Positions 1 to 17,747 are shown, counted from the first letter of the stretch. The stretch is DNA of 22,699 nucleotides from a virus (IMGVR_UViG_3300009431_000803:1-22699), one strand, 5' to 3'. Notes: a model not told the origin generated them from the letters alone. Made by a program: numbers and translations.

Positions 1-129
1 CTGGATTTCACAATGGGCAGTGGCACCACCGGTGTTGCTTGCGCGAACCTGAACCGCGACTTCATAGGCATTGAACTTGACCTTGAATATTTCAAGATAG
101 CAGAGAAACGGATAAATGAAAATATTTAA
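1..129 (+). CDS. DNA methyltransferase, C-terminal end (partial)
   Basis: The reading frame is open from base 1 and stops at 127-129, giving the last 42 residues of a protein that begins outside the window. The segment has the SAM-binding motif of N4/N6-amino DNA methyltransferases ([10 protein letters not shown], residues 2-11 of the fragment). It is followed by the FIGIELD...YFKIAEKRI ending typical of this family, in which the methylase modifies adenine or N4-cytosine in a short DNA site. With motif I near the C-terminus, the gene probably has the permuted order (catalytic DPPY-type motif first), but that part is not visible. The C-terminus looks natural rather than cut by an insertion. 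It overlaps the next gene by 14 bases. In a phage the usual role is protection from host restriction; specificity cannot be inferred here. Confidence 0.85.
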
Positions 130-733
130 GATAACAGAAGCAAGCGATTATTTAGGGGTGTCAATAAATACACTCAAGACGCTTGCCAACAACGGAGAGA
201 TAAACTCTTTCAAGACTTCTGGCGGTCATAGGCGTTTCAGGCAAGATGATTTAGACGTTTATATGGGAGTTGAGAAAGAAAAGCAAGAAAAGCTAACGGT
301 TATCTATGCCAGATGTAGCACAGCAAAACAAAAAGAAAACCTTGAACGTCAGAAAGACAGACTGAGAAAACACGCCGAAAGCAAAGGTTATAAGTTTATT
401 CTGATTGACGAAATTGCAAGCGGGATAAATGAGAAGCGAAAAGGACTACACAAGCTAATCAAATTGTGCTTTGAAGGTAAAGTTGAACGAATATTGATTG
501 AGTATAAAGACAGACTTGCTCGTTTTGGTTATGAATATCTTGATGCTATTTTTAAGAACTTGGAAATAACAGTCGAAGTAGTTGAGAAGAAAGAAAAGAA
601 ATATGAAGAAGAATTAGCAGAGGATATTATGAAAATTCTGACTTGTTATTCAGCGAGATACTACGGTGCGAGAGGTGGCAGAAAAAAGAAAAATAAAGCT
701 GAAAATGAGCCAGACGAATCTAATGGAATTTAA
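116..733 (+). CDS. tnpA: IS607-type serine recombinase / transposase TnpA
   Basis: The 205-aa protein has the two-part IS607 layout. An N-terminal MerR-like helix-turn-helix (residues 1-50, ending [12 protein letters not shown]) is followed by a resolvase-type serine recombinase domain. The catalytic site is YARCSTAKQ with Ser68 preceded by Arg66, and the conserved YKDRLARFG block (129-138) carries the catalytic arginines. The C-terminal SARYYGARG tail is also typical, so the protein looks full length. In this family a 5'-phosphoserine intermediate moves the element without target duplication. The gene starts inside the methyltransferase gene (14-base overlap), and no tnpB follows. GC is about 36% over 121-600 by hand count, against about 60% in later genes, which argues for a separate origin. 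It could be a domesticated or orphan recombinase. Mobility is not shown. Confidence 0.88.
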
Positions 734-6045: not shown

Positions 6046-8205
6046 GTGGGAACGAGAATTGAGAAGCTGATGGAGAACCTGACGGTGGCCAAGTCCTCCT
6101 GGGACTCCCTCTTCCTCCGGAATATGGAGGACAAGATCACCAAGGACGATGTGGGCAAAGATCCATATGCCAAGTCGGATATCGTCTACGTTTGCGTTTC
6201 CACGACGGCTCGGGCCATTGCTCAGGTCCCTCTCGTGGTAATGGAGAACGGCGCCGGGGACAAGAAGACTCCCGTCCGGTGGGACGACCCGTGGCAAACC
6301 CTCCTCCGCAAGCCCAACCCGGTCCAGGATCCGTACCGGTTCATGGAGTCGATTATCTCCCACTATATGCTCGACGGCAACGTGTGGATATATCCCTATC
6401 CGGAGGACGCAGAGGTCCCGTGGGCTCTGTACGTCGTTCCCAAGAAGAATATGGAGCCGATAAAGGACGACCGCGGTCACCTGGTGGCGTGGAAGTATAC
6501 TCCGGGCACCGGGGGAGCCTCCTCTTCCTCGGCATCCTTCGTCCTGAAGGCCGAGAGGACGATTCACCTGGCCACGTTCAACCCCAACGATCCTATCCTG
6601 GGCCAGCCTCCCCTGGAGGCCGGCGGGGTCTTCGTCCGGACGGACTACAAGGCTGCAACCTACAATGAAAAGTTCTTCGACAACGCAGCAGTCCCGGCCG
6701 GCGTCATCTCGGCTCCCGAGAAAGTCGCACTATCGGATCCGCAGTTCAATAAACTCCGGGAGAGGATCGAGTCCGTCCACCGCGGTTACAAGAAGTCTCA
6801 CCGCATGCTCTACCTCGAACGGGGTCTCCAGTACACCCAGCTGGGCCTGAGCCAGAAGGATATGGACTACCCGGGGCTGAGGAAGATGAGCCGGCTGAGT
6901 ATCAAGCAGTGCTTCGGGATGAAGGATGCGGTTATCTCGGAGACGGACGATGTGAACTACTCGACCAACCGGGAGCAGAGGAAGGAATGGTGGGACTCGA
7001 CGAACATCCCGATGATGACGATGTTCACCTGGGGACTGAATCACCGTCTCCTCTCGGACCCGGCCGTCCAGAAAGCCGGGATCAAATACGTGGCTTTCGA
7101 TATCTCCAAGGTCTCGGCTCTGAAGGAGGACCTCTCCTCAAAGGTCGAGACCGGATCGAAGCTGTGGACGATGGGATTCACCGCAAACGAGATCAACGAA
7201 AAGCTCGAGCTCGGGTTCCAGGAGAAGGACTGGCGTGATCGGTGGTGGCCTCAGATGAACCTTTACCCGGTGGGGGATAATACTCCCCTGGACGACGAGG
7301 TTCCCGAGGAGGAGCCGGAGCAGACTCCGGCGCCGGTGCCCGCAGAGCCGGCCGAGGGGGAGGGAGAGGAAGAGGTCGTGGAGGAGACCTTCCGGGCCGG
7401 GAAGGAGTTGAGCTCTGCTCCTTGGTATAAGATCGGAGAAGCCAACTGGAAGTCCTTCGTGGCCAAGACCCGGCCGATAGAGATGAAGTTCCGGGGGAAG
7501 GTCTCCCGGGCTTTCTACAATATGCGACGGAAAGCCATGGGACTTCTCCGGGAGGACAACGACGTGGACGGTCTCCTGAAGGAGGAGTTCACCGAGGAGA
7601 TCGAGGATCTGGTCCGGTGGTTGACTCCTCTCTACCGGTCCGCGGTCGAGGTCGGACTCCGGTCCGGGGCTGATAGCACGGGGATGGACGCGAAGAGGTC
7701 GGACGAGTCCATGGTCATTGACGTCGACTTCCTCCTGGACGCAGATCCTGTGGTGGTGGCTCATATCGACAAGAAGAAAAGCCTGATTGCGGGACTCCGG
7801 AAGAAGGTCAAAGACGATATTCACAAGACTCTCTCCGTCGGGACTGCGGCCGGAGAGTCTATCAACCAGCTGGCCGACCGGGTGGGAGAGGTATTCAAGA
7901 TGGCCTCCACCCGGGCCAAAACCATAGCCCGGACCGAAGTCGTGGGTTCCTCGAATATGGGGAGGAACGTCGTCTTGAATCAGTCCGGGTTTCAGAAAAA
8001 GAGATGGTTCACTGCGTTGGACGAGAACGTCCGGGACTCCCACGATGAGATGGGAGGGCACGATCCTATCCCGATGGCGGACTCCTGGGAGCTCCCCTCC
8101 GGCGCGGTTTTACAATATCCCGGGGATTATGGAGCTGGCTTCCCGGAGGAAACAATCAATTGTAGGTGTATCGAGATGCCCGACCTCGAAAGTCGGGAGG
8201 AGTAA
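6046..8205 (+). CDS. Portal protein fused to a MuF-like head domain
   Basis: A GTG at 6046, a few bases after AGGAGGAGAT, opens a 719-aa protein. Residues about 1-410 are an HK97-type portal: IVYVCVSTTARAIAQVPLVV near the start, the YRFMESIISHYMLDGNVWIY block, and the long stem/wing region with NREQRKEWW. An acidic, proline-rich linker follows (about 415-450, EEEPEQTPAPVPAEP). The C-terminal quarter (about 615-715) is a phage Mu protein F-like domain with IARTEV, WFTALDENVRDSHDEMGG and the NCRC ending. The portal ring forms the DNA channel; MuF-type proteins are minor head components, usually encoded separately. Here the two are one polypeptide. No frame break or stop separates them. The protein is likely placed in the prohead before capsid assembly. 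Confidence 0.92.
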   Translation: MGTRIEKLMENLTVAKSSWDSLFLRNMEDKITKDDVGKDPYAKSDIVYVCVSTTARAIAQVPLVVMENGAGDKKTPVRWDDPWQTLLRKPNPVQDPYRFMESIISHYMLDGNVWIYPYPEDAEVPWALYVVPKKNMEPIKDDRGHLVAWKYTPGTGGASSSSASFVLKAERTIHLATFNPNDPILGQPPLEAGGVFVRTDYKAATYNEKFFDNAAVPAGVISAPEKVALSDPQFNKLRERIESVHRGYKKSHRMLYLERGLQYTQLGLSQKDMDYPGLRKMSRLSIKQCFGMKDAVISETDDVNYSTNREQRKEWWDSTNIPMMTMFTWGLNHRLLSDPAVQKAGIKYVAFDISKVSALKEDLSSKVETGSKLWTMGFTANEINEKLELGFQEKDWRDRWWPQMNLYPVGDNTPLDDEVPEEEPEQTPAPVPAEPAEGEGEEEVVEETFRAGKELSSAPWYKIGEANWKSFVAKTRPIEMKFRGKVSRAFYNMRRKAMGLLREDNDVDGLLKEEFTEEIEDLVRWLTPLYRSAVEVGLRSGADSTGMDAKRSDESMVIDVDFLLDADPVVVAHIDKKKSLIAGLRKKVKDDIHKTLSVGTAAGESINQLADRVGEVFKMASTRAKTIARTEVVGSSNMGRNVVLNQSGFQKKRWFTALDENVRDSHDEMGGHDPIPMADSWELPSGAVLQYPGDYGAGFPEETINCRCIEMPDLESREE

Positions 8206-8226
8206 AAGGGAGAGGGAGGAAGGACA

Positions 8227-9525
8227 ATGGCGCAAAAACTTTTGGGAGTCGACGGCAATCCGATTCTTCGGAACGGAAAGGAAGTGTGGACCTCGGCTCA
8301 GTCGTCCGTATTGAAGGCAGTGGACCTCGGAAAACGGGAGCTCTCTATCACCGGGACGACGGAAGCCCGGGACAGGGACCGGGACCGGATCAAGGTCTCC
8401 GGGTGGGAGCTGGAAAACTTTCTGAAGAATCCCGTCTTTCTCTGGGGCCACGACTATTCGAGTGTGCCTCTGGCTGCGGCTCGGAAGGTCGTGAAGAGGA
8501 GAGCTCCCCTCCGGCTGGATTTCGTTTTCCGGTTCCCCACGGAGATCGGTCTCTATCCTTTCGCAGATATGATCCTGGGGCTGTACGACGACGGGATCAT
8601 CAATGCCTCCTCCGTCGGGTTTATCCCGATTGAGTCCGAGCCCCTGCCTCCCGAGAAGGGGAAGGAGGACGAACCGGAGTGGACCCGGGGAAGGCTCTAC
8701 ACGAAGCAAGAGCTCCTCGAGCTCTCCGGCGTCGCAGTGCCCTCCAACCCGGAGGCTCTCCAGAACAGCCTCCAGGAGGTAGATGCTTTCCGGAGCCTGG
8801 ACGGAGAAGCCCAGAAGCACTTCATCTCTCTCATGTGTAAGGGATCCCCGGTGGAGCCGGAATCGAAAGGGGACCTGGCCTCCTGGATCGAGGATCAGAA
8901 GAAGGAGGTCCAATTCATCGACGAGACCGTCTCTCAGCACTTCGTCCCCGGGGATATCTCCGAAAAAGGTGACGAGCCCACGGAGGATCCCCAGGAGACA
9001 GAGGGAGCCCCTCCAGCTGGAGAAGGGATCCTGAAGGATTCCGAACACCCAGAGCATGGTTTCTGCTTCCTCGAGAATCATGTCCTGGTTACGGACAGCA
9101 AGCTCTTTTTTGAGAAGTTACAGGAAGAGGATAATCCGTTCTATGCCCTGACAGGTCTTCCCATCCCGGAGAAGCCGGAGGATTTGCCCCCGACCGGTGA
9201 CGAAGGGGAGAAGACTTTGAAGGCCGGAGCGGTTCTCAGTGCTCGGAACAAAACCAAGCTCCAGAGAGCGCTCGAGTATATCCAGGAGGTTTTGGCCTCC
9301 GCAGAAGCCCAGGAAGAAGAGGAAGTTGAGAGCCGCCATTTGGATGCTCTCTTGTCTCCTCCGAAAGGTCCGGGGTCCGTTCCTCCCGAGGGGAACAAGG
9401 ACAAGAAACCGGCTCCTCCGGGAGACGTTCACTCCTTCCTTCGGTTGAGTCCGGATCAGGTCGATGGCCTGAAACGGGAAACGAAGAATATCAGAGATTC
9501 ATTTCCTGACCTGTTTCCTCAATAG
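8227..9525 (+). CDS. HK97-type prohead protease with scaffold-like C-terminal region
   Basis: The 432-aa protein starts with a peptidase S78-like domain (residues about 15-180). It has RDRDRDRIKVSGWELENFLK and FLWGHD with His75 as the likely general base, then INASSVGF with Ser129 as the likely nucleophile, and LSGVAVPSNPEAL at the end of the domain. The prohead protease cuts the capsid delta domain or scaffold during maturation. The remaining 250 residues are acidic, proline-rich and partly coiled coil (NKTKLQRALEYIQEVLASAE), which suggests that scaffold function is fused to the protease. Such proteases are often much shorter. A ribosome site (GGGAGGAAGG) lies before the ATG. The capsid gene follows after a 37-base gap. 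Confidence 0.9.
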   Translation: MAQKLLGVDGNPILRNGKEVWTSAQSSVLKAVDLGKRELSITGTTEARDRDRDRIKVSGWELENFLKNPVFLWGHDYSSVPLAAARKVVKRRAPLRLDFVFRFPTEIGLYPFADMILGLYDDGIINASSVGFIPIESEPLPPEKGKEDEPEWTRGRLYTKQELLELSGVAVPSNPEALQNSLQEVDAFRSLDGEAQKHFISLMCKGSPVEPESKGDLASWIEDQKKEVQFIDETVSQHFVPGDISEKGDEPTEDPQETEGAPPAGEGILKDSEHPEHGFCFLENHVLVTDSKLFFEKLQEEDNPFYALTGLPIPEKPEDLPPTGDEGEKTLKAGAVLSARNKTKLQRALEYIQEVLASAEAQEEEEVESRHLDALLSPPKGPGSVPPEGNKDKKPAPPGDVHSFLRLSPDQVDGLKRETKNIRDSFPDLFPQ

Positions 9526-9562
9526 GGGAAGAGGGGGATGGAGACGAAAGGAGGAACCACAA

Positions 9563-10969
9563 ATGAAGCGCTATTTCGAGAAGCTGGAAGATGGGCGATT
9601 GGTCCTGGTGGCCGAGCCGGTCGAGGGTCAGAAGTATTTCCTGGAGGACGGAACCGAGGTGACGTATGCGAAGGAGCCCACGCCGGCTCCGGCAATCCGG
9701 ATTCCGGAAGCCGATCCCATCGGTGAACTCACCGGACTGATGAGGGACATTGCCTCTGCCCAGTCCAAGTCCAGCAACGTCATGAACGACATCAAGGAAA
9801 AGGTCGACTTGAACGAAGCGGCAATCCGGACCTTCCAGGAGCAAGCTGCGAAGGGATTCCCGATTCCCGGTCAGGGAGCTGCGGCTCCCAACGGCTCGGA
9901 AGAGGACATGAGTGTCTATGCTCCCTACGATCTGGCCAAGCAGGGCAAGGGTCTGGTGAATCGTTTCGGTGGTGGCTACAGCATCACCGAAGAGAAGAGG
10001 GTCGAGATGGCCAAGTATTTCGTCCTCTTCCTGAAGGCCGGTCTGGGCCAGGACCCGGCTGCGCGGCAGCTTTTGCGTGAACGGTATGCCCCGGTGGGCA
10101 AGACGGATATCGGGGACAGCGGCAACGTGTTCCCCGTTCCGGACATCGTGGACAGTGAAATCTTTGCCTTCGCAAGGGAGCAGTCTGCTCTTCTTCAGTA
10201 TGCGCGTCTGTGGGAGATGACCTCTGAGAAGATGTCTTTCCCGAGCGAGACCGCACAGAGCACTCCCACGTGGGGGAACACCACGCCCAATTCCGATCCG
10301 ACCATTGCCGAGGTCGAGCTGACGGCAGAGGAACTCAGTGCGTACACCACGGTCAAGAACATGACCCTGGCGGATGCCCGTTCCGATATCGTCACCTGGC
10401 TCACCCAGATGATGGCAGAAGCCGCTGCCCTGGAGCTGGACAACTCGGGATTCAACGGAGACGGCACCAGCACCTACGGGTCCTGCTCCGGCGTTCTGTC
10501 TGCGGCCGCGGGCTATTCCGTCGTCATGGCTTCCGGCTCCACCAACTTCTCTGCGATCACAGCCGACCATCTCTCCGAGATGATCAGCAAGCTCGACGGA
10601 CTGAAGAAGGTGGGGGCGCGGTTCTTCATGCACGGTTCCATTCTGCACTATGTGCGCGGTCTGAAGGACACCAATGATCGTCCGATCTTCCTCGAGACGG
10701 TCGGGGCTCCCATGTCGGGGCAGATTTGGGGCTACCCCTACACCGAAGTGATCAAGGCTGTTAGCACCTCCGCGGTGTCCACCGGCTTCGTCGTCTTCGG
10801 CAACCTCAGATACTTCGCCGTGGGGAGGCGGCTCGATGCAACTGCTCTCCAGGTCGATCCGTATGGCGACTGGACCACGAACCGCACGCGGTTCAAACTC
10901 TATCAGCGGTGGGGGATCGACATTGCCCTTGCCAACGGGTTTGCGCGGCTCGTGACTGCGGCTTCTTAA
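9563..10969 (+). CDS. Major capsid protein, HK97 fold
   Basis: The 468-aa protein has the family layout. An N-terminal region of about 110 residues is predicted helical (GELTGLMRDIASAQSKSSNV, then NEAAIRTFQEQA) and matches a delta domain removed by the protease. Then come the N-arm and the core. Core marks include FPVPDIVDSEIFAFAREQSA, ELTAEELSAYTTVKNMTLAD, the ALELDNSGFNGDGT segment and the late VDPYGDWTTNRTRFKLYQRW strand region. A strong ribosome site (AAAGGAGGAACCACAA) fits high expression. Codon use is more C-ending and less CGG/GGG-rich than in neighbours, as expected of an abundant protein. The exact cut site is not predicted here. The gene is followed by a G-rich structured segment. 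Confidence 0.94.
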   Translation: MKRYFEKLEDGRLVLVAEPVEGQKYFLEDGTEVTYAKEPTPAPAIRIPEADPIGELTGLMRDIASAQSKSSNVMNDIKEKVDLNEAAIRTFQEQAAKGFPIPGQGAAAPNGSEEDMSVYAPYDLAKQGKGLVNRFGGGYSITEEKRVEMAKYFVLFLKAGLGQDPAARQLLRERYAPVGKTDIGDSGNVFPVPDIVDSEIFAFAREQSALLQYARLWEMTSEKMSFPSETAQSTPTWGNTTPNSDPTIAEVELTAEELSAYTTVKNMTLADARSDIVTWLTQMMAEAAALELDNSGFNGDGTSTYGSCSGVLSAAAGYSVVMASGSTNFSAITADHLSEMISKLDGLKKVGARFFMHGSILHYVRGLKDTNDRPIFLETVGAPMSGQIWGYPYTEVIKAVSTSAVSTGFVVFGNLRYFAVGRRLDATALQVDPYGDWTTNRTRFKLYQRWGIDIALANGFARLVTAAS

Positions 10970-10983
10970 ACCTTTGACTTGCT

Positions 10984-11016
10984 GGGGGCCTGGGGGCCAG
11001 GTCGGGGACCTTGGGG
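10984..11016 (+). other. Potential G-quadruplex after the capsid gene
   Basis: Four G-runs lie within 33 bases on the coding strand: 10984-10988 (5 G), 10992-10996 (5 G), 11004-11007 (4 G) and 11013-11016 (4 G), with loops of 3, 7 and 5 bases. This meets the usual G4 rule with runs of four. The first two runs are in a tandem CTGGGGGC repeat (10982-10997). It would form in mRNA or the coding strand and competes with the hairpin at 11003-11056. Confidence 0.5.
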
Positions 11017-11056
11017 TTCTCCTCCTCGGCCCCAAGGTCTTGCTCTCGGGTCCCCG
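11003..11056 (+). terminator. Nested inverted repeats after the capsid gene
   Basis: GACCTTGGGG (11007-11016) pairs perfectly with CCCCAAGGTC (11030-11039) around a 13-base loop. Alternatively CGGGGACC (11003-11010) pairs with GGTCCCCG (11049-11056) as an outer stem over the inner TTGGGG/CCCCAA. No long T-run follows, so a classical intrinsic terminator is not clear. It may be a leaky terminator or a structure that protects the capsid mRNA end. Confidence 0.5.
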
Positions 11057-11081
11057 GCAATCTTCGTTGGAGTACCAGGAG

Positions 11082-11273
11082 ATGATAAGTCAACCGGAAG
11101 AGAATAGGATGATGACCAACCGGCCGAAGGTCGTCCACGTGTACTACCGGTGCGCCAGGTGCGGGAAAGAGTTCCGCTCCGGGAGGGAGACCAAGGGGCT
11201 CCGGTGCGACAAATGCGATGGGAAGGTTTTTGCCCACCGAGACGAGAGAGGGGGAATCATATGCAAGAAGTAG
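11082..11273 (+). CDS. Small zinc-ribbon protein, RpoP-like
   Basis: From the ATG at 11082 (GGAG 9 bases upstream) the protein has 63 residues; ATGs at 11109 and 11112 are alternatives. It has one clear domain, YYRCARCGKEF...GLRCDKCDGKVF, two CxxC knuckles 14 residues apart that should bind one zinc. The pattern, with aromatic residues before the first knuckle and a basic ending, recalls archaeal RpoP/Rpb12 and other short rubredoxin-like ribbons. A role in RNA polymerase is not shown, and similar ribbons occur as loose adaptor proteins in phages. The last 13 bases overlap the epimerase-like gene, so it seems to be the first gene of the block between capsid and connector. Confidence 0.65.
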   Translation: MISQPEENRMMTNRPKVVHVYYRCARCGKEFRSGRETKGLRCDKCDGKVFAHRDERGGIICKK

Positions 11274-12058
11274 AGAAGAAGAAACCGACCAAGTCAGTCT
11301 CTTTGCGGAGGAAGCCGGCCGTGAAGAAGAAGGAACCGGATCCGATTGAGAAGAAGGCCGAGGAGGAAGGGAAGGTCCTCGTCATCGGGTCCTCTGGGTT
11401 CTTCGGTTCCTGGCTCTGCCCGGGGTTGGAGAAGCTCAGTCACGAAATCGTCCCGTATGATATCGAGGAAGGGAACGACCTCCACGATACGGACAAGCTC
11501 CTGTCTGCGGCTTCGGGGTGCTCCTCCGTCGTCATGCTGGCTGCTATTCCGCACTACTCTGAGAAGATAATCCCTCCCCTGTTTATTCGGTTGAATACCC
11601 TCGGGACGACCGGCGCCATCAAGGCCCTGGCCGGTGCCGGGATCCGCCGGTTTGTTTTTACCTCCACCGGCGCCATCTACGGGTTCGGTCCGGGAAGAGA
11701 CGAGGGATGGGTCCGACCTCCTATCACTGAGGACGTCTCCGGGATGGACTGGAACGTGATGGATATCTATGGGGTGAGTAAAGTCCTGGCTGAGAACGAG
11801 CTCCGGTCTTGGGCGGAAAGGGAAAAGACTTTCCTCTCCGTCGTTTCCCTCCGGGTCAACTGTATCGAGCCTCATCACGGGGGAGCTCGGGAGCACGGGG
11901 CTCATCACGGCTGGTGGTGTTCGCAGGAGTTGGCCGTCCGAGCCTACGATGCTGCCATCCGGAGGATTACTCCCGGGTTCACTGAGGTCAACGTGGGAGA
12001 GGAGAATCCGAAACTGAAGTTGACGAGGCTGGAAGTTCTTCTCGGTGATTTGCTGTAG
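11261..12058 (+). CDS. NAD-dependent epimerase/dehydratase-like SDR protein
   Basis: The 265-aa product has a basic N-terminal extension (about 36 residues, KKKPTKSVSLRRKPAVKKK) before an extended short-chain dehydrogenase domain. The NAD(P)-binding loop is GSSGFFG (43-49), the serine/threonine strand is VFTSTGAIYG, and the catalytic pair is Tyr170 and Lys174 in YGVSK. The family acts on nucleotide sugars by epimerisation, dehydration or reduction through a 4-keto intermediate. At 265 residues it is shorter than most sugar epimerases (about 310-340), so the C-terminal substrate domain is small. The start is the ATG at 11261 behind GAGAGGGGGAATCAT. With the radical SAM and glycosyltransferase genes after it, making or altering an activated sugar is the best inference; the substrate is unknown. 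Confidence 0.88.
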   Translation: MQEVEKKKPTKSVSLRRKPAVKKKEPDPIEKKAEEEGKVLVIGSSGFFGSWLCPGLEKLSHEIVPYDIEEGNDLHDTDKLLSAASGCSSVVMLAAIPHYSEKIIPPLFIRLNTLGTTGAIKALAGAGIRRFVFTSTGAIYGFGPGRDEGWVRPPITEDVSGMDWNVMDIYGVSKVLAENELRSWAEREKTFLSVVSLRVNCIEPHHGGAREHGAHHGWWCSQELAVRAYDAAIRRITPGFTEVNVGEENPKLKLTRLEVLLGDLL

Positions 12059-12084
12059 CCCTGACCAGAGGAGGAGGGAGACAG

Positions 12085-13359
12085 ATGGGAAACAAAAGAG
12101 GAGGGACAAAGGACGTCGTTTTCATAAACCCACCGGTGTGGCTGTATGCCGGGACGCAGTTGAACTTCAACCCGAACCTGGGGACCCTATACCTCGCAGC
12201 CTCCGTCCGGAAGAACTACCGGGTCCGGGTATTCGATTGCGAGGCACTCCGGTGGGGATATAAGGACATGATGAATATGCTGAAGCAGATCGGTCCTTCC
12301 GCGGTTGGGATAACCGCAACCACCCTCGGGTTCCCGAGCCTGAAACGGATGGTCAAGGAGATCCGTCGGGAGTTCCCTCGGACCTACATCATGATTGGGG
12401 GACCTCACGTGACGGCCCACCAGGACGTGGCCCTGGCCGAGTCCGGCGCCGACGTGGCCGTGGTCGGGGAAGGAGAACCGGTGATCGGCCGGCTTCTGGA
12501 GGAGAAGACCAGAGGGGTCGTCTGGAACAAGGAGCCGATGGATCTCGGATCCCTCCCTCGGCCGGCCTGGGACCTCCTCCGGCCGAAGATCAACGAAGGA
12601 TACCGGGGCAATGCTCCCACCTACGACCTCCCGGAGACGGCCGTCCAGTGGCAGCGGGGATGCCCCCACGGGTGTTCCTTTTGTAGCCATGCCGTCTTCG
12701 GGAACCGTCCGACGAAGTTCCGACCTCCGAGGGCTATCGTGGACGAGCTCCTCCACCTGCGGGATGAGTGGGGGATCCGGACCGTCTTCGTCTACGACGA
12801 CGAGATGTTCGGACTGTCTACGAGGCAAGACGAGTGGCTGAACGATGTCCTGGATATCGTGATAAAGGAGAGGGTGGGGCTGACTCTGAAGACCCAAGGA
12901 AGGTGCAACGAAAAACTGGTTAAACGAAGAACCGTGGAAAAGATGGCAGAGGCCGGCTTCCGGAGCATCATGCTTGGGTGCGAGAGTGGGAGCCCGAAGG
13001 TCCTGAAGGCCAACCGGAAGGGGACGACGGTCGAAGATATCCGTCACACCGTGAAGATGGTAGCAGAGGCCGGGATCGACCCGTGGACTTTCTGGATGGT
13101 AGGGAACCTGGAGGAGACTCCGGAGGAAGCCTCCCGGACGGAGGTCCTCATCAAGGAGCTGAAGACCTGGATCCGATTCCGGCAGGTGACGATCTGTACG
13201 CCGTGGTCCGGTTCGGAGACCTACCAGCTCGCAAAGGAAGGCGGGTGGATATTCAGTGAGGATGTCCGGGACTTCCTGGCAGACCGTCCGGTGATGAACA
13301 CTCCGTGGATGTCAGCCGGGGAGATGACGGAGTGGAGAGGTCGACTGCTTGGTGCGTGA
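12085..13359 (+). CDS. B12-binding-type radical SAM enzyme
   Basis: The 424-aa protein starts with a Rossmann-like cobalamin-binding-type domain (residues about 10-140: FINPPVWLYAG, PNLGTLYLAASVRK, then YIMIGGPHVTA and AVVGEGE). The radical SAM barrel begins at about 185, with the 4Fe-4S motif Cys193, Cys197 and Cys200 (GCPHGCSFCS, the canonical Cx3Cx2C). Later marks include VYDDEMFG, the CESGSPKVL segment and FWMVGNLEETPEE, all usual in this class. Members catalyse methylations or rearrangements at unactivated carbons, including sugar and antibiotic tailoring. Whether cobalamin is really bound is not certain, because the DxHxxG motif is not visible. A strong ribosome site (GAGGAGGGAGACAG) precedes the ATG. 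The next gene starts 8 bases downstream. Confidence 0.92.
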   Translation: MGNKRGGTKDVVFINPPVWLYAGTQLNFNPNLGTLYLAASVRKNYRVRVFDCEALRWGYKDMMNMLKQIGPSAVGITATTLGFPSLKRMVKEIRREFPRTYIMIGGPHVTAHQDVALAESGADVAVVGEGEPVIGRLLEEKTRGVVWNKEPMDLGSLPRPAWDLLRPKINEGYRGNAPTYDLPETAVQWQRGCPHGCSFCSHAVFGNRPTKFRPPRAIVDELLHLRDEWGIRTVFVYDDEMFGLSTRQDEWLNDVLDIVIKERVGLTLKTQGRCNEKLVKRRTVEKMAEAGFRSIMLGCESGSPKVLKANRKGTTVEDIRHTVKMVAEAGIDPWTFWMVGNLEETPEEASRTEVLIKELKTWIRFRQVTICTPWSGSETYQLAKEGGWIFSEDVRDFLADRPVMNTPWMSAGEMTEWRGRLLGA

Positions 13360-13367
13360 GGTGCTGA

Positions 13368-14132
13368 ATGAGAACGCTAGTGAATATCTCCTGGGAATGT
13401 TCCCTCGACAACTGTGCATATTGCTGGATAACTGGCCGGGACGGGGTGGGGAAGAAGCTCCGCGGGCCAGAGTTGTCGAAGGACCAGTGGATCCGAGCCC
13501 TGGCCAAACTCCCTCCGGGGATCGTCGACTTCTGCGGAGGGGAGCCCACCCACGTCTTCGGGTTTGCTGATATCGTCAATTCTCTGGATAAGAATTTTCA
13601 TGCCTTCGGGATGACGACAAACCTCTCCCACGATTCCAACGTGGAGACTCTTCGGGGGATTGAGGACTTCCGTCGGTGTGCGGCCGTCAACTGCTCCTTT
13701 CATCACGAGAATAACATCAACTCCTTTATCCGGAGATTCTACCAGGTCCAGGAGATATATCCTCCGGCAAGTATTACGGTGGTGGAGAATCCGTATGTGG
13801 ATTACTCGGACGAGATCGTGGAGATGAAGAGTTTGGGGCTCCCGGTCAACGTCGTCCCCTATCAGAATCCGCAAGATTCCAACCTTCCTCACCCGAAGGG
13901 GAGGATCAAGTTTTGCTCCGGGGGGAGTACCCACGTCACCGTGAATCCGGACGGGAACGTCTACCGGTGTTTGACCTCCGTCCGGAGCAACCGGATGGAC
14001 GAGTTTTTTCTGGGGAATCTATTGACGGACGAGATCGTGTATGAGGGATATGAAGGGTGTGACTTGAATTGCGATCCCGAGGAACGGAAGTGTTGGGGCA
14101 TAAATGCCTGGACCGAGGAGGGTCCGTTATGA
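13368..14132 (+). CDS. Radical SAM protein with SPASM-like C-terminus
   Basis: The 254-aa protein opens with NISWECSLDNCAYCW, cysteines at 11, 16 and 19. That is Cx4Cx2C, one residue wider than the usual Cx3Cx2C. The next family mark, FCGGEPTHV (about 55-63), is the GGEP SAM-amino-group motif, which supports the assignment despite the spacing. The C-terminal region has cysteines in KFCSGG, YRCLTS, GCDLNCDPEERKCWG, a pattern like an auxiliary SPASM or twitch cluster. VTVNPDGNVYRC is the typical strand entering such a domain. SPASM enzymes often modify peptides, but some act on sugars. The short length leaves a partial barrel. The stop overlaps the following glycosyltransferase start (ATGA). 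Confidence 0.85.
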   Translation: MRTLVNISWECSLDNCAYCWITGRDGVGKKLRGPELSKDQWIRALAKLPPGIVDFCGGEPTHVFGFADIVNSLDKNFHAFGMTTNLSHDSNVETLRGIEDFRRCAAVNCSFHHENNINSFIRRFYQVQEIYPPASITVVENPYVDYSDEIVEMKSLGLPVNVVPYQNPQDSNLPHPKGRIKFCSGGSTHVTVNPDGNVYRCLTSVRSNRMDEFFLGNLLTDEIVYEGYEGCDLNCDPEERKCWGINAWTEEGPL

Positions 14133-15136
14133 AGATAATGATGCTAAACGATTTCTGGAAGTTCTCAGGAGGTGAGCAGATTTTTTGTTGGTTGATCGAG
14201 GAGCTCCGAGTCCTGGGCCACGATGTTCTCGGACTTACTCACGACGAGTTGAAAAAGAAGGGGCTCGATCAGTATCTGGGAGAGTTCAACCCGGATATTA
14301 TCCACCAGCATAATTTTGCCCACATCGGACCGGTTGCCCTCCGGCATATGAAGAAACGGCCGAGCGTACAGACCGTTCACGACTACTGGCCTATATGTCC
14401 CGACCGGCACCACTACCGGTTCGATCTCGACCAGATCTGCGACACGCCGGCCGATTGTATCAAGTGTCCGTGCTACCTCGGCCGCATCCCATATCCTTCC
14501 TCTTCCCTGAACGATATGGAAGGGATCAAGATGGTGGGGGTGAGTCAGTATGTGGCCGAGAGGATCTCGGAGTTTGGATATGAGGGGGTGGAATTTATCC
14601 GGAACGGGATCCGGCTCCACCCGGATATCGAGGACTCCTCGGACGAGGAGTTCATCCTCGGGATGGGGTCTCTCCCGGATCAGGTCAAGGGGCTGAAGGA
14701 GTTCGGTCGGATTGCTGACCGTCTTCCCCAGTACAAGTTCGTTCTGGTGGGAGGGACCGGGAAGACTACGATCCCCGGGGTCCTTTGTACCGGCCGGATC
14801 CCCTATGACCAGGCACTGAACTACTACCGGACCTGCTCGGTGATGGTTATCCCGAGCGTGTGGGAGGAGCCGAACGGTCTCGGGATCCAGGAGGCCGGGC
14901 AATTCGGGAAGCCTCTCGTTGCCTTCGACGTGGGAGGGATCTCGGAATATGTCGAGCACGACGTGATTCCTCTCCGGGATATCGACGCAGCCGCAGAGCT
15001 CCTCGATCTCCTGATGGGGGATCCGGAGGAGAGGAAGAAGAGAGGCGCCCGGAACAAGGAGCGTGTCCTCCGGGAGTTCACCGCAACTCATATGGCGAAG
15101 CGATACGAGGCGCTGTATGAAAGGATAGCACGATGA
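14129..15136 (+). CDS. Glycosyltransferase, GT4-like (first)
   Basis: From the ATG at 14129 (overlapping the previous stop; GAGGAGGG upstream) the protein has 335 residues. The N-terminal domain has the GT-B acceptor fold marks FSGGEQIFCWLIEELRVLGH and DIIHQHNFAH. The C-terminal nucleotide-sugar domain has FIRNGI, FVLVGG, and VWEEPNGLGIQEAGQFGKPL (about 245-264), the E-x7-E retaining motif of GT4. This is a retaining enzyme that moves a sugar from a nucleotide donor to an acceptor in the cytoplasm. A Cys-rich insert (CPDRHHYRF...CDTPADCIKCPC, about 92-115) looks like a metal-binding or disulfide insert and is known from some GT4 enzymes. The donor and acceptor are unknown; the neighbours suggest virion or surface glycosylation. 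Confidence 0.9.
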   Translation: MKIMMLNDFWKFSGGEQIFCWLIEELRVLGHDVLGLTHDELKKKGLDQYLGEFNPDIIHQHNFAHIGPVALRHMKKRPSVQTVHDYWPICPDRHHYRFDLDQICDTPADCIKCPCYLGRIPYPSSSLNDMEGIKMVGVSQYVAERISEFGYEGVEFIRNGIRLHPDIEDSSDEEFILGMGSLPDQVKGLKEFGRIADRLPQYKFVLVGGTGKTTIPGVLCTGRIPYDQALNYYRTCSVMVIPSVWEEPNGLGIQEAGQFGKPLVAFDVGGISEYVEHDVIPLRDIDAAAELLDLLMGDPEERKKRGARNKERVLREFTATHMAKRYEALYERIAR

Positions 15137-16173
15137 CCCTCGAAGAGTTCCGGATCGACTGGTGTCATGAGGCAATGGGGGACGGGACCGGTAACAACTA
15201 CGGGTACACGGTCCATAACAAGACGCTGAAACGGTATTGCGAGAACCTCATCCAGATGGACCCGGCCGCGGAGGACTCCCTCGTCATCCTCCCTCCCGAG
15301 GGATACCAGGCCAAGCCCGGGAAGGTGAATTGGCTCTTCACGATGTTCGAGGGGGAGGACATTCCGGAACCGTACAGCCGATATCTCGTCAACGCAGACT
15401 ACATCCTGACGCCTTCGACCTGGGTCCGGAACCTCTTCTCCCGGGTCTACCCACGGGATCGGATCTTTGTCGTCAACCACGGGGTGGAGCCCTTCTTCAC
15501 CTACAAAGCCCGGAAATGGCCTTTGCCCAAGAAACCTTTCCGGTTTCTCTGGGTGGGAGCTCCCAACCCGAGGAAGGGGTGGCAGGAGCTCGTCTATATG
15601 TGGAAGAACGCAGGGCTGGAAAACTTTCCGCAGCTCGAGCTCTACCTGAAAACGACGAACCTCCCGAAGCCTCCCGGGGGGAAGGAATACCACGTCAACA
15701 AGAACGTCATCGTGGACGGTCGGAACCTCCCGAGGAAGGACCTCCTGAAACTGTACCATGACTCTCATGCTTTCCTCTTCCCGACCCGGGGGGAGGGGTT
15801 CGGTCTGACCCTGGCCGAGGCTATGAGGACCGGGCTCCCGTGTATCTCCCCGAGCTATTCCGGGGTGGCTGATTTCTTCGATGAGGATGTGGGTTACGAG
15901 GTCAGTTATACGATCCAGCAGTCCACGGTCAGTTTCGTGGGCCGGCCGGACCTCGGAGATCATGCCACCCGGGTGGCCTTCCCGAATATGGAGGAGATAG
16001 TCGAGAGGATTCACGAGATCTGCAACTCCCGGGGAGCCTACAAGAAGGCCCTGGTGAAGGGGAGGAGAGCCTACAACCGGATGCTCGGGTTCACATGGGA
16101 CCGTTCTGCGGAGACGATGGTCGGGATAATGTTCGACGAGTTCAAGAAGAGGAGGGCTCGGGATGCGGCTTGA
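15133..16173 (+). CDS. Glycosyltransferase, GT4-like (second, tandem paralog A)
   Basis: The 346-aa protein starts at an ATG that overlaps the preceding stop by four bases. It has GT-B features: WLFTMFEGEDIPEPY (about 71-85), NADYILTPSTWV, VVNHGVEP, RFLWVGAPNPRKGWQEL, and the retaining motif FPTRGEGFGLTLAEAMRTGL (about 216-235) with two glutamates seven apart. The late SYSGVADFF is the usual donor-binding loop. It is clearly a paralog of the next gene, sharing the same blocks in order. Such glycosyltransferase family 1/4 proteins are found in phage genomes with various acceptors. Because it is short and lacks membrane segments, it should act in the cytoplasm, on a protein or a soluble intermediate. 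The substrate is not known. Confidence 0.9.
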   Translation: MTLEEFRIDWCHEAMGDGTGNNYGYTVHNKTLKRYCENLIQMDPAAEDSLVILPPEGYQAKPGKVNWLFTMFEGEDIPEPYSRYLVNADYILTPSTWVRNLFSRVYPRDRIFVVNHGVEPFFTYKARKWPLPKKPFRFLWVGAPNPRKGWQELVYMWKNAGLENFPQLELYLKTTNLPKPPGGKEYHVNKNVIVDGRNLPRKDLLKLYHDSHAFLFPTRGEGFGLTLAEAMRTGLPCISPSYSGVADFFDEDVGYEVSYTIQQSTVSFVGRPDLGDHATRVAFPNMEEIVERIHEICNSRGAYKKALVKGRRAYNRMLGFTWDRSAETMVGIMFDEFKKRRARDAA

Positions 16174-17167
16174 TTGGTTGACGCACGGGGCTTTGGTCGA
16201 GACCGGTCATGCGATGGCCTTCGGGTATTACACCCACAACTTGAATCTGAGGAAAGCCGTCGAGAAGGTCGTGGAGATAACGGAGGATGCGGACGAAGCC
16301 CTCCAGATCGTGAGTGCGGAATCCTTCCGGCCGGTCGAGGGGAAACACAACTGGCTCTTCACGATGTTCGAAGGGGAGGACCTCCCGGATTTCTACCTGG
16401 AGAATATCAACAAGGCCGATTCCGTCCTGGTTCCATCCTTCTGGGTCAAGAGCGTGTTTATCAAGAACGGGGTGACGAGACCGATCTATGTCGTCCCGCA
16501 CGGGGTCGATCCCGTCTATGAGTACCGGGAGAGGAAGCTCCCTCCGAAGGGGGGCAGGTTCCGATACCTCTGGGTGGGGGCGCCGAACAACAGGAAGGGA
16601 TACGAGGAGATAACCTATGCCTGGGAGCAGCTCGGGTTTGGGGAGAACGATTCCGTGGAGCTCTATTTGAAGAGCACCGGATTGAAGCTGGACCGGGATG
16701 TCGTTGAGGTAGGGAATGCGACGATAGATAACCGGATGCTGGAGGTGGAGGAGCTCGTCGAGCTGTATCACTCGGCTCACTGCTTCGTTTTGCCTACGAG
16801 AGGCGAGGGGTTTGGTCTTACGCTGGCTGAAGCTATGCGCACTGGACTACCCTCCATCTGTACTCTGTACAGTGGCGTAACAGAGTTTTTTGACCCTTCG
16901 GTCGGGTTTGCCCTGGACTATATCTCCGTCAATGCGGAGTTCTCCTTCCCGGGGATCCCGGGGAAGAATAAGATTTGGACCCGGCTGGGAATCCCGGATA
17001 TGAAGGCCCTGTGCGATGCTCTGCTGTACGTCCCGACGCACTGGGATGAAGCCGTCGAGACGGCCAAGGCCGGGAGCGAACGGATAGCAAATAAATTCAC
17101 GTGGGAACGATCAGCAGAGTTGCTGGTTGCCGCGATGAAAAAAGAGAAGAGGAAAAGGGAGGGATGA
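16163..17167 (+). CDS. Glycosyltransferase, GT4-like (third, tandem paralog B)
   Basis: The 334-aa protein is the tandem paralog of the preceding gene. It shares WLFTMFEGEDLPDFY, NKADSVLVPSFWV, VVPHGVDPVYEY, RFRYLWVGAPNNRKGYEE and the retaining motif LPTRGEGFGLTLAEAMRTGL, followed by LYSGVTEFF. The ATG at 16163 lies inside the end of the previous gene (11-base overlap) and has GAGGAGGG upstream, so the pair is translated together. The N-terminus (MRLDWLTHGALVETGHAMAF) is different from that of the paralog, which suggests a changed acceptor. The C-terminus is basic (KKEKRKREG). Two divergent copies may build a disaccharide or act on two sites; this is inference. The connector gene starts one base after the stop. 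Confidence 0.9.
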   Translation: MRLDWLTHGALVETGHAMAFGYYTHNLNLRKAVEKVVEITEDADEALQIVSAESFRPVEGKHNWLFTMFEGEDLPDFYLENINKADSVLVPSFWVKSVFIKNGVTRPIYVVPHGVDPVYEYRERKLPPKGGRFRYLWVGAPNNRKGYEEITYAWEQLGFGENDSVELYLKSTGLKLDRDVVEVGNATIDNRMLEVEELVELYHSAHCFVLPTRGEGFGLTLAEAMRTGLPSICTLYSGVTEFFDPSVGFALDYISVNAEFSFPGIPGKNKIWTRLGIPDMKALCDALLYVPTHWDEAVETAKAGSERIANKFTWERSAELLVAAMKKEKRKREG

Positions 17168-17168
17168 G

Positions 17169-17747
17169 ATGGCTCTGATAACCTTGGAGGACCTCCGGTT
17201 GGAGGTCGAGGAAAAAACTCCGGCCAACGACGAGCTCCTCCGAGCAATGGCCTCCGGGATCGAAAGCCTGTGGGAGACCCTGACGAATCGGACCCTGGAG
17301 TCGACGGCCCACACGGAATACCACAACATTCAGGAATACGGGGACACGATTTTTCTGAAAAACTGGCCGGTGGTTTCCGATCCCGCAGTCCAGCTCTGGG
17401 AGGATCCGGACTGGGAGTGGGGAAGCGATACCCTTATTGCCGCCACGGATTATCGGGTGGATTACGTCAACGGGGTTATCTACTACAACTCTTATTTTCT
17501 CGAGGGAAAGCAGACCGTCAAGGTCTCCTACACGGCCGGGTATTCCGTCTCCACCCTCCCGGATGGGTGGAAGAGGATCCTGGTCCGGCAAGGGGTTCAC
17601 TGGTTCCACCAGGCCAAGCATAGCAAGTGGGACGTAGCAAGCGTGGCCGAGCCGGCCGGCGCCGGGACGACCTCCTACAAGAATCTGGTGAGCAACCTCC
17701 TCCCGGACTTTGCTCTCCTGGTGGAGAAGGAAAGGATGAAGTGGTGA
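17169..17747 (+). CDS. Head-tail connector protein, gp6-like
   Basis: The 192-aa protein opens with ALITLEDLRLEVEEKTPAND and a helical bundle (residues about 5-45), then a beta-rich part (TEYHNIQEYGDTIFLKNWPV, TDYRVDYVNGVIYY, QTVKVSYTAGY). This is the pattern of the phage gp6-like connector family (DNA packaging/head completion). Those proteins form a ring under the portal that closes the packaged head. GAGGG precedes the ATG at 17169. The gene resumes the standard head-tail order after the accessory block. The stop overlaps the GTG start of the next gene (17744-17747). Confidence 0.85.
   Translation: MALITLEDLRLEVEEKTPANDELLRAMASGIESLWETLTNRTLESTAHTEYHNIQEYGDTIFLKNWPVVSDPAVQLWEDPDWEWGSDTLIAATDYRVDYVNGVIYYNSYFLEGKQTVKVSYTAGYSVSTLPDGWKRILVRQGVHWFHQAKHSKWDVASVAEPAGAGTTSYKNLVSNLLPDFALLVEKERMKW

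Follow-up and report, generated by a model that had tools for sequence, protein, structure and literature searches.

A putative virion glycan cassette between the capsid and gp6 genes of uncultivated tailed phages

The virus record IMGVR_UViG_3300009431_000803 of the IMG/VR database (22.7 kb) contains a block of seven genes at positions 11082-17167, bordered by the major capsid gene and the gene for a gp6-like connector. The whole stretch of 22,699 nt is referred to here as the window. The block is probably a virion glycan cassette, i.e., a virus-encoded and variable set of enzymes decorating the capsid or a neighbouring virion protein. That a virion protein is decorated is suggested by three observations: the position of the genes, their co-inheritance with the capsid gene and the contents of the same slot in related viruses. 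As judged by sequence comparison, an outer frame consisting of the capsid gene, a zinc-ribbon gene, the last glycosyltransferase gene and gp6 is inherited as a unit, and the genes between the zinc ribbon and the last glycosyltransferase are exchanged among relatives.

The slot between the capsid and gp6 genes

Related loci were collected in two ways. A search with a capsid-protein alignment yielded 41 viral loci, and a capsid-independent search with a glycosyltransferase alignment yielded 134. The top 80 of these were retained and, after near-duplicates had been taken out by hand, reduced to 64 contigs. The last glycosyltransferase gene of the block, GT3 (GT1, GT2 and GT3 denote the three glycosyltransferase genes of the window), retrieved no relatives when scanned as a single sequence; an alignment of the two paralogues GT2 and GT3 was needed to recover them. 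Among these 64 non-duplicate contigs, found with the glycosyltransferase alone as query, 55 hold a capsid or gp6 gene, and the enzyme lies in the slot in 48 of the 55. Where both border genes are present, it is found between them in 25 of 27 contigs. Exceptions include L078, L081 and L104, in which the glycosyltransferase follows the tail terminator gene and precedes a tail-tube-like gene. In L102 and L105, too, it comes after gp6, near a tail gene. The same glycosyltransferase family also occurs between the tail terminator and tail-tube-like genes in L083 and L084.

Conservation of the gene set at this position, which a first-pass annotation of this DNA had named as one way to check its proposal, is borne out for part of the set among the viral contigs. 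The slot is widely kept, and a five-gene core, comprising a B12-type radical S-adenosylmethionine (SAM) protein, a second radical SAM protein (rSAM2), GT1 and two GT2/GT3 copies, recurs in the same order in the 58 kb contig G001 (loci L005, L010 and L012), in L011 and in L052. In core order, identities to the window are 76, 68, 64, 79 and 66% in G001, and 57, 32, 45, 49 and 51% in L011. G001 additionally possesses the short-chain dehydrogenase/reductase (SDR; 52%) and a small zinc ribbon, and L011 and L052 each contain two zinc ribbons.

Across 36 loci, the divergence of the last glycosyltransferase follows that of the capsid protein with a Mantel r of 0.744, compared to values of 0.794 for capsid and portal and 0.663 for capsid and gp6 (0 of 2000 permutations in each case). 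The correspondence holds down to approximately 25-30% capsid identity. At the sequence level, this co-divergence shows shared descent of the two genes, not function. A recent cargo insertion is ruled out by the conservation of the frame. The earlier statement that the block is not a recent insertion consequently applies to the zinc ribbon and the last glycosyltransferase, but not to the exchanged genes between them.

Zinc ribbons are concentrated directly behind the capsid gene. A protein with a CxxC...CxxC pattern starts at most 700 bases after this gene at 39 of 53 non-redundant loci, whereas control windows of equal size contain a zinc ribbon in 1 of 303 cases upstream and in 1 of 22 cases far downstream. 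In the capsid-aligned loci with enough downstream sequence, zinc ribbons come first, followed by variable enzymes. Moreover, an N-terminal zinc ribbon is fused to diverse enzymes in L014, L018, L024, L025, L028, L040 and L041, the partners being GT2-, GT4- and GT9-family, B12 radical SAM and methyltransferase domains. The simplest reading of fusions to such differing enzymes is that the zinc ribbon is probably a shared docking module. Large slot proteins of 529-1354 amino acids (aa) with N-terminal zinc ribbons are found in the loci just named and in L029, L034 and L035; several of them contain long stretches without a family match.

The enzymes behind the zinc ribbon differ considerably between loci. 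Slot contents include GT2-, GT4- and GT9-family, LicD-like, B12 radical SAM and methyltransferase domains, along with further methyltransferases and radical SAM proteins; these contents are enzymes of glycan type. L014 and L093 give weak sulfotransferase matches, just under the Pfam cut-offs. Proteins of about 180-220 aa with a GPESSGT motif in L013, L015, L049 and L064 are "sulfotransferase-like" by this P-loop motif alone; none of the four matches a PHROG family, and those of L013 and L015 match no Pfam family. L013 and L015 share 65% and 62% capsid identity with the window, compared to 51-52% for L011 and L052, yet the inner cassette of the window is present in L011 and L052 and not in L013 or L015. 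Relatives that are closer by capsid thus lack the cassette, which indicates a conserved frame with a variable filling.

Organization of the block and its enzymes

Seven genes, in the order first annotated and at nearly the same positions, lie between the borders (Table 1). They are tightly coupled, as had been noticed before: five of the six junctions within the block overlap or are at most 10 bases apart. Overlaps are found between zinc ribbon and SDR, rSAM2 and GT1, GT1 and GT2, and GT2 and GT3; the gap between the SDR and B12 radical SAM genes is 26 bases, and GT3 ends 1 base short of gp6. With the exception of the 63-aa zinc ribbon, codon usage correlates with that of the structural genes at r = 0.88-0.93, in agreement with the proposed fit to the late operon. 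An assembly error, raised in the first-pass annotation as a possible source of the gene order, is ruled out because a second assembly agrees and independent contigs repeat the order. An independent IMG/VR contig of 5,495 bases corresponds to window positions 7773-13267 at 99.96% and spans the junction between capsid and block, and the gene order of the window is also present in L005/L010, L011 and L052.

Table 1. Genes of the block and its borders in the window
Feature	Position	Strand	Evidence and remarks
HK97-type major capsid protein, 468 aa	9563..10969	+	PF05065 E=5.5e-39, phrog_10; left border of slot
Zinc-ribbon protein, 63 aa	11082..11273	+	CARC-x14-CDKC; weak zinc-ribbon family matches
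Short extended-SDR nucleotide-sugar epimerase/dehydratase-like protein, ~265 aa	11261..12058	+	PF01370 E=1.3e-16; phrog_540 nucleotide-sugar epimerase
B12-binding and radical SAM protein, 424 aa	12085..13359	+	PF02310 E=4e-19, PF04055 E=5e-23; CPHGCSFC
Second radical SAM protein (rSAM2), twitch-type, 254 aa	13368..14132	+	SPASM PF13186 E=1e-4; CX4CX2C, GGEP
GT1, GT4-type glycosyltransferase, 335 aa	14129..15136	+	PF00534 E=1e-16
GT2, GT4-type glycosyltransferase, 346 aa	15133..16173	+	PF00534, phrog_2170; EGFGLTLAE
GT3, slot-conserved glycosyltransferase, 334 aa, last before gp6	16163..17167	+	phrog_2170 E=1e-36
gp6-like head-tail adaptor	17169..17747	+	phrog_442 E=2.8e-10; right border of slot

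The SDR protein retains the GxxGxxG (GSSGFFG) and YxxxK (YGVSK) motifs and matches nucleotide-sugar epimerase families; homologues occur in L005, L096 and L098. The B12 radical SAM protein combines a cobalamin-binding domain with a CxxxCxxC radical SAM core, the cysteines of which are conserved in its homologues. Its nearest NCBIfam models (TIGR04072, BchE and HpnJ) score about 100 bits against cut-offs of at least 360, so no named functional family can be assigned from these models and no named function is claimed. The nearest PDB sequence, AprD4 (6fd2), is distant.

In rSAM2, the GGEP motif and the cluster cysteines are intact, with a one-residue insertion in the cluster motif that is common to L005 and L052. 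The C terminus carries the pattern C-x(9-15)-G-x4-C plus further cysteines that characterizes twitch-domain (BtrN-like) radical SAM enzymes, in the form C183-x12-G196-x4-C201 and C231-x3-C235; these five residues, including the four cysteines, are invariant in 10 homologues. It fits a twitch domain with one predicted auxiliary cluster and not a full SPASM domain, which refines the earlier description of the cysteines as SPASM-like. The structure model (predicted local distance difference test, pLDDT, 87.7) matches radical SAM/SPASM/twitch structures.

The paralogues GT2 and GT3 share 41-42% identity. The EX7E catalytic motif (EGFGLTLAE) is conserved in their homologues, and Pfam and PHROG matches support their identity as glycosyltransferases. 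Full-length homologues of GT1 are confined to four viruses that share the same block.

Outside the block, an IS607-type serine recombinase/transposase-like gene (window 116-733, plus strand; phrog_6620, E=1e-53) lies upstream of the terminase gene in the low-GC left end (42% compared to about 58% elsewhere in the window) and is possibly a mobile element or a contig-edge feature. No tRNA genes are present in the window or in three long relatives. Nothing in the analysis points to an actinobacterial host, and the virus record carries no host information.

Proposed role and competing explanations

As a virion glycan cassette, the block would be expressed alongside the late structural genes. A sugar would be built or tailored by the SDR together with both radical SAM enzymes, and the three GT4 enzymes would add sugars in sequence onto a virion protein. 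The likeliest substrate would be the major capsid protein, the product of the adjoining gene, with a tail protein as the next candidate. The zinc ribbon probably docks the enzymes onto their substrate. Since the inner enzymes are swapped between viruses while the outer frame is kept, each virus would have a different coat. The sequences show the gene identities, the slot, the co-inheritance, the swapping and the fusions; we infer which protein is the substrate, what the sugar chemistry is, that the zinc ribbon docks and what the virus gains, which may be altered particle recognition or stability. Comparative evidence supports the earlier proposal of a sugar pathway encoded by the virus, and links it to the capsid slot. 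That proposal also had an unusual sugar attached to the capsid or another late protein. The enzyme families and the link to the slot hold; the capsid as attachment site goes beyond the evidence, following from position and co-inheritance, and so does the unusualness of the sugar, as substrates are not readable from sequence.

Several findings weigh against decoration of the capsid with a sugar. First, the capsid model has a pLDDT of 39.9, which is too poor to propose an exposed site. Its only confident part is a small beta-rich N-terminal extension (residues 1-36, window 9563-9670), which the window shares with L005 and L011 and which L006, L008 and L009 lack. Secondly, a sugar-activating enzyme (nucleotidyltransferase or sugar kinase) is absent from the block, so the cassette would depend on nucleotide sugars of the host. 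Thirdly, the structures matched by rSAM2 (template modelling score, TM, about 0.4-0.6) mix peptide-acting enzymes (EpeE, SuiB and SkfB) with sugar-acting ones (BtrN, DesII, BlsE and SpeY), so that its substrate is not assignable by fold. Lastly, the relatives G001 and G005 have glycosyltransferases near tail-tip genes, which means that tail proteins could be the target.

The third of these findings bears on the possibility that rSAM2 modifies a capsid peptide by epimerisation, thioether formation or oxidation, with glycosylation as a separate activity. EpeE, SuiB and SkfB outrank BtrN (4m7t) in the fold comparison, and the nearest PDB sequence is 5wgg, the radical SAM protein CteB, a SCIFF-type maturase. 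However, TM-scores are only about 0.5, the sugar-acting enzymes match too, and the four-cysteine twitch pattern and the length of 254 aa suit BtrN. Peptide modification is considered quite improbable.

Glycosylation of a tail or connector protein instead of the capsid shell is rather unlikely. It agrees with the homologues beside a tail-tube-like gene (L078, L081 and L104) or among head-tail genes of the Arthrobacter phage DanielleIgnace, with the extra glycosyltransferases near the tail tip in G001 and G005, and with mycobacteriophages, in which tail-tube C termini are reported to be glycosylated as well (PMC12619734). Conversely, the zinc ribbon and the first cassette genes are located directly 3' of the capsid gene in most contigs. 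The extra glycosyltransferases of G001 and G005 belong to a second cassette near the tail-tip genes (L125:10853-14578 in G001; L127:3594-13623, minus strand, in G005), which in G005 includes a probable radical SAM protein. Both cassettes encode a large GT9-GT4 protein (52% identical) with a CxxC motif near the N terminus, so these two viruses may hold two decoration loci.

The main alternative outside the virion is that the enzymes remodel the surface polysaccharide (O chain or capsule) of the infected host, e.g., to exclude other phages or to aid release, and that the late-operon position is mere convenience. Glycosyltransferase and radical SAM cassettes of pelagimyophages (PMC7029224) and polymorphic cassettes of jumbo cyanophages (PMC7824862) have been read in this way, and sets of SDR, methyltransferase and GT4 genes look like O-antigen loci. 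Such a role would nevertheless not require the last glycosyltransferase and the zinc ribbon to stay with the capsid gene in widely diverged viruses, as they do, and late expression leaves little time for a surface change. By Pfam, the seven block proteins include neither a flippase nor a polymerase, and neither the GtrA-type membrane protein nor the GtrB partner of a serotype-conversion (gtr) cassette. Furthermore, no prophage of this capsid lineage and no relative of the capsid protein was found in about 85,000 genomes; for the B12 radical SAM protein, the search for a host from prophages gave only a 24% match. Host-surface remodelling is considered unlikely.

Hypermodification of viral DNA, e.g., glycosylation of an altered base, is very improbable. 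Phage glycosyltransferases are able to glycosylate DNA (PMC12619734). In G001, a radical SAM protein (L123:16294-17007) resembles QueE of the 7-deazaguanine pathway. This protein, presumably QueE-like, and a presumably DpdA-like protein (L123:173-1096) suggest 7-deazaguanine DNA modification in that relative; by Pfam the former is "radical SAM" only and the latter has no match. Yet G005 (a 54 kb record) has a glycosyltransferase pair before gp6 and no homologue of the QueE-like gene, the window has no recognisable base-modifying enzyme, and genes for DNA modification would not be expected to follow the capsid gene.

Relation to known systems and significance

Glycosylation of phage virions as such is already known. 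In the mycobacteriophages Che8 and Rita, virion glycosylation has been described, with glycans reported on the C termini of capsid and tail-tube proteins (Freeman et al., 2023, as cited in PMC11256854 and PMC12619734). Both systems have phage-encoded glycosyltransferases, and the glycans reported for the mycobacteriophages are covalent. In Maravista, a Che8-like phage, the glycosyltransferases are located near the 3' genome end and not in a capsid-connector slot, and the available part of the description of the mycobacteriophage system includes no radical SAM protein or zinc ribbon. In addition, a tblastn search with GT2 against 50,697 phage records gave matches in 8 organism groups, Mycobacterium phages not being among them.

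Chloroviruses glycosylate their own major capsid protein autonomously, as exemplified by Vp54 of PBCV-1 and B736L of NY2A (PMC4691112). They resemble the present system in encoding both sugar-making and glycosyltransferase genes, and among solved structures the glycosyltransferase B736L matches the GT2/GT3 profile best, although the match covers only part of the enzyme. However, chloroviruses infect eukaryotic algae, have another capsid fold and carry N-linked glycans. The hypervariable regions of pelagimyophages and cyanophages also contain exchangeable glycosyltransferase cassettes, with radical SAM genes in the pelagimyophage ones (PMC7029224; PMC7824862), but these regions are interpreted as serving host-surface modification (PMC7029224; PMC7824862), and those of pelagimyophages are located with tail-fibre genes and not in the capsid-gp6 gap (PMC7029224). 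GT4 enzymes of Streptomyces, Rhodococcus and Arthrobacter phages belong to the same family (phrog_2170; 22-30% identical). Moab, Daubenski and Grayson carry the gene for this enzyme near ribonucleotide reductase and lysin genes, and DanielleIgnace is the only one of the four phages examined with a homologue among head-tail genes. In this cultured phage (locus L134), gene 21 is distantly homologous to the glycosyltransferase gene of the slot. In the literature searched, in which subscription journals are largely uncovered, no description was found of a capsid-gp6 address, of a zinc-ribbon partner or fusions, of tailoring by B12 or twitch radical SAM enzymes, or of a spread across uncultivated lineages.

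A broader view, put forward tentatively as somewhat short of an even chance, is that the slot is a "capsid serotype locus" of ancient origin, widespread among uncultivated tailed phages. A fixed frame would hold an exchangeable glycan-tailoring cassette; sugars not known from viruses would be products of its B12 and twitch radical SAM enzymes, and zinc ribbons would be a general docking tag to the capsid.

If true, self-made and fast-changing sugar coats would be built into a broad phage group instead of being an oddity of a few mycobacteriophages, and such coats could be located by a fixed genomic address. They would represent a phage counterpart of bacterial O-antigen variation. The slots would also be a source of new enzymes for glycan tailoring, among them radical SAM enzymes with virion sugars or a capsid peptide as substrate, and with DanielleIgnace the idea could be tested in a phage that is in culture.

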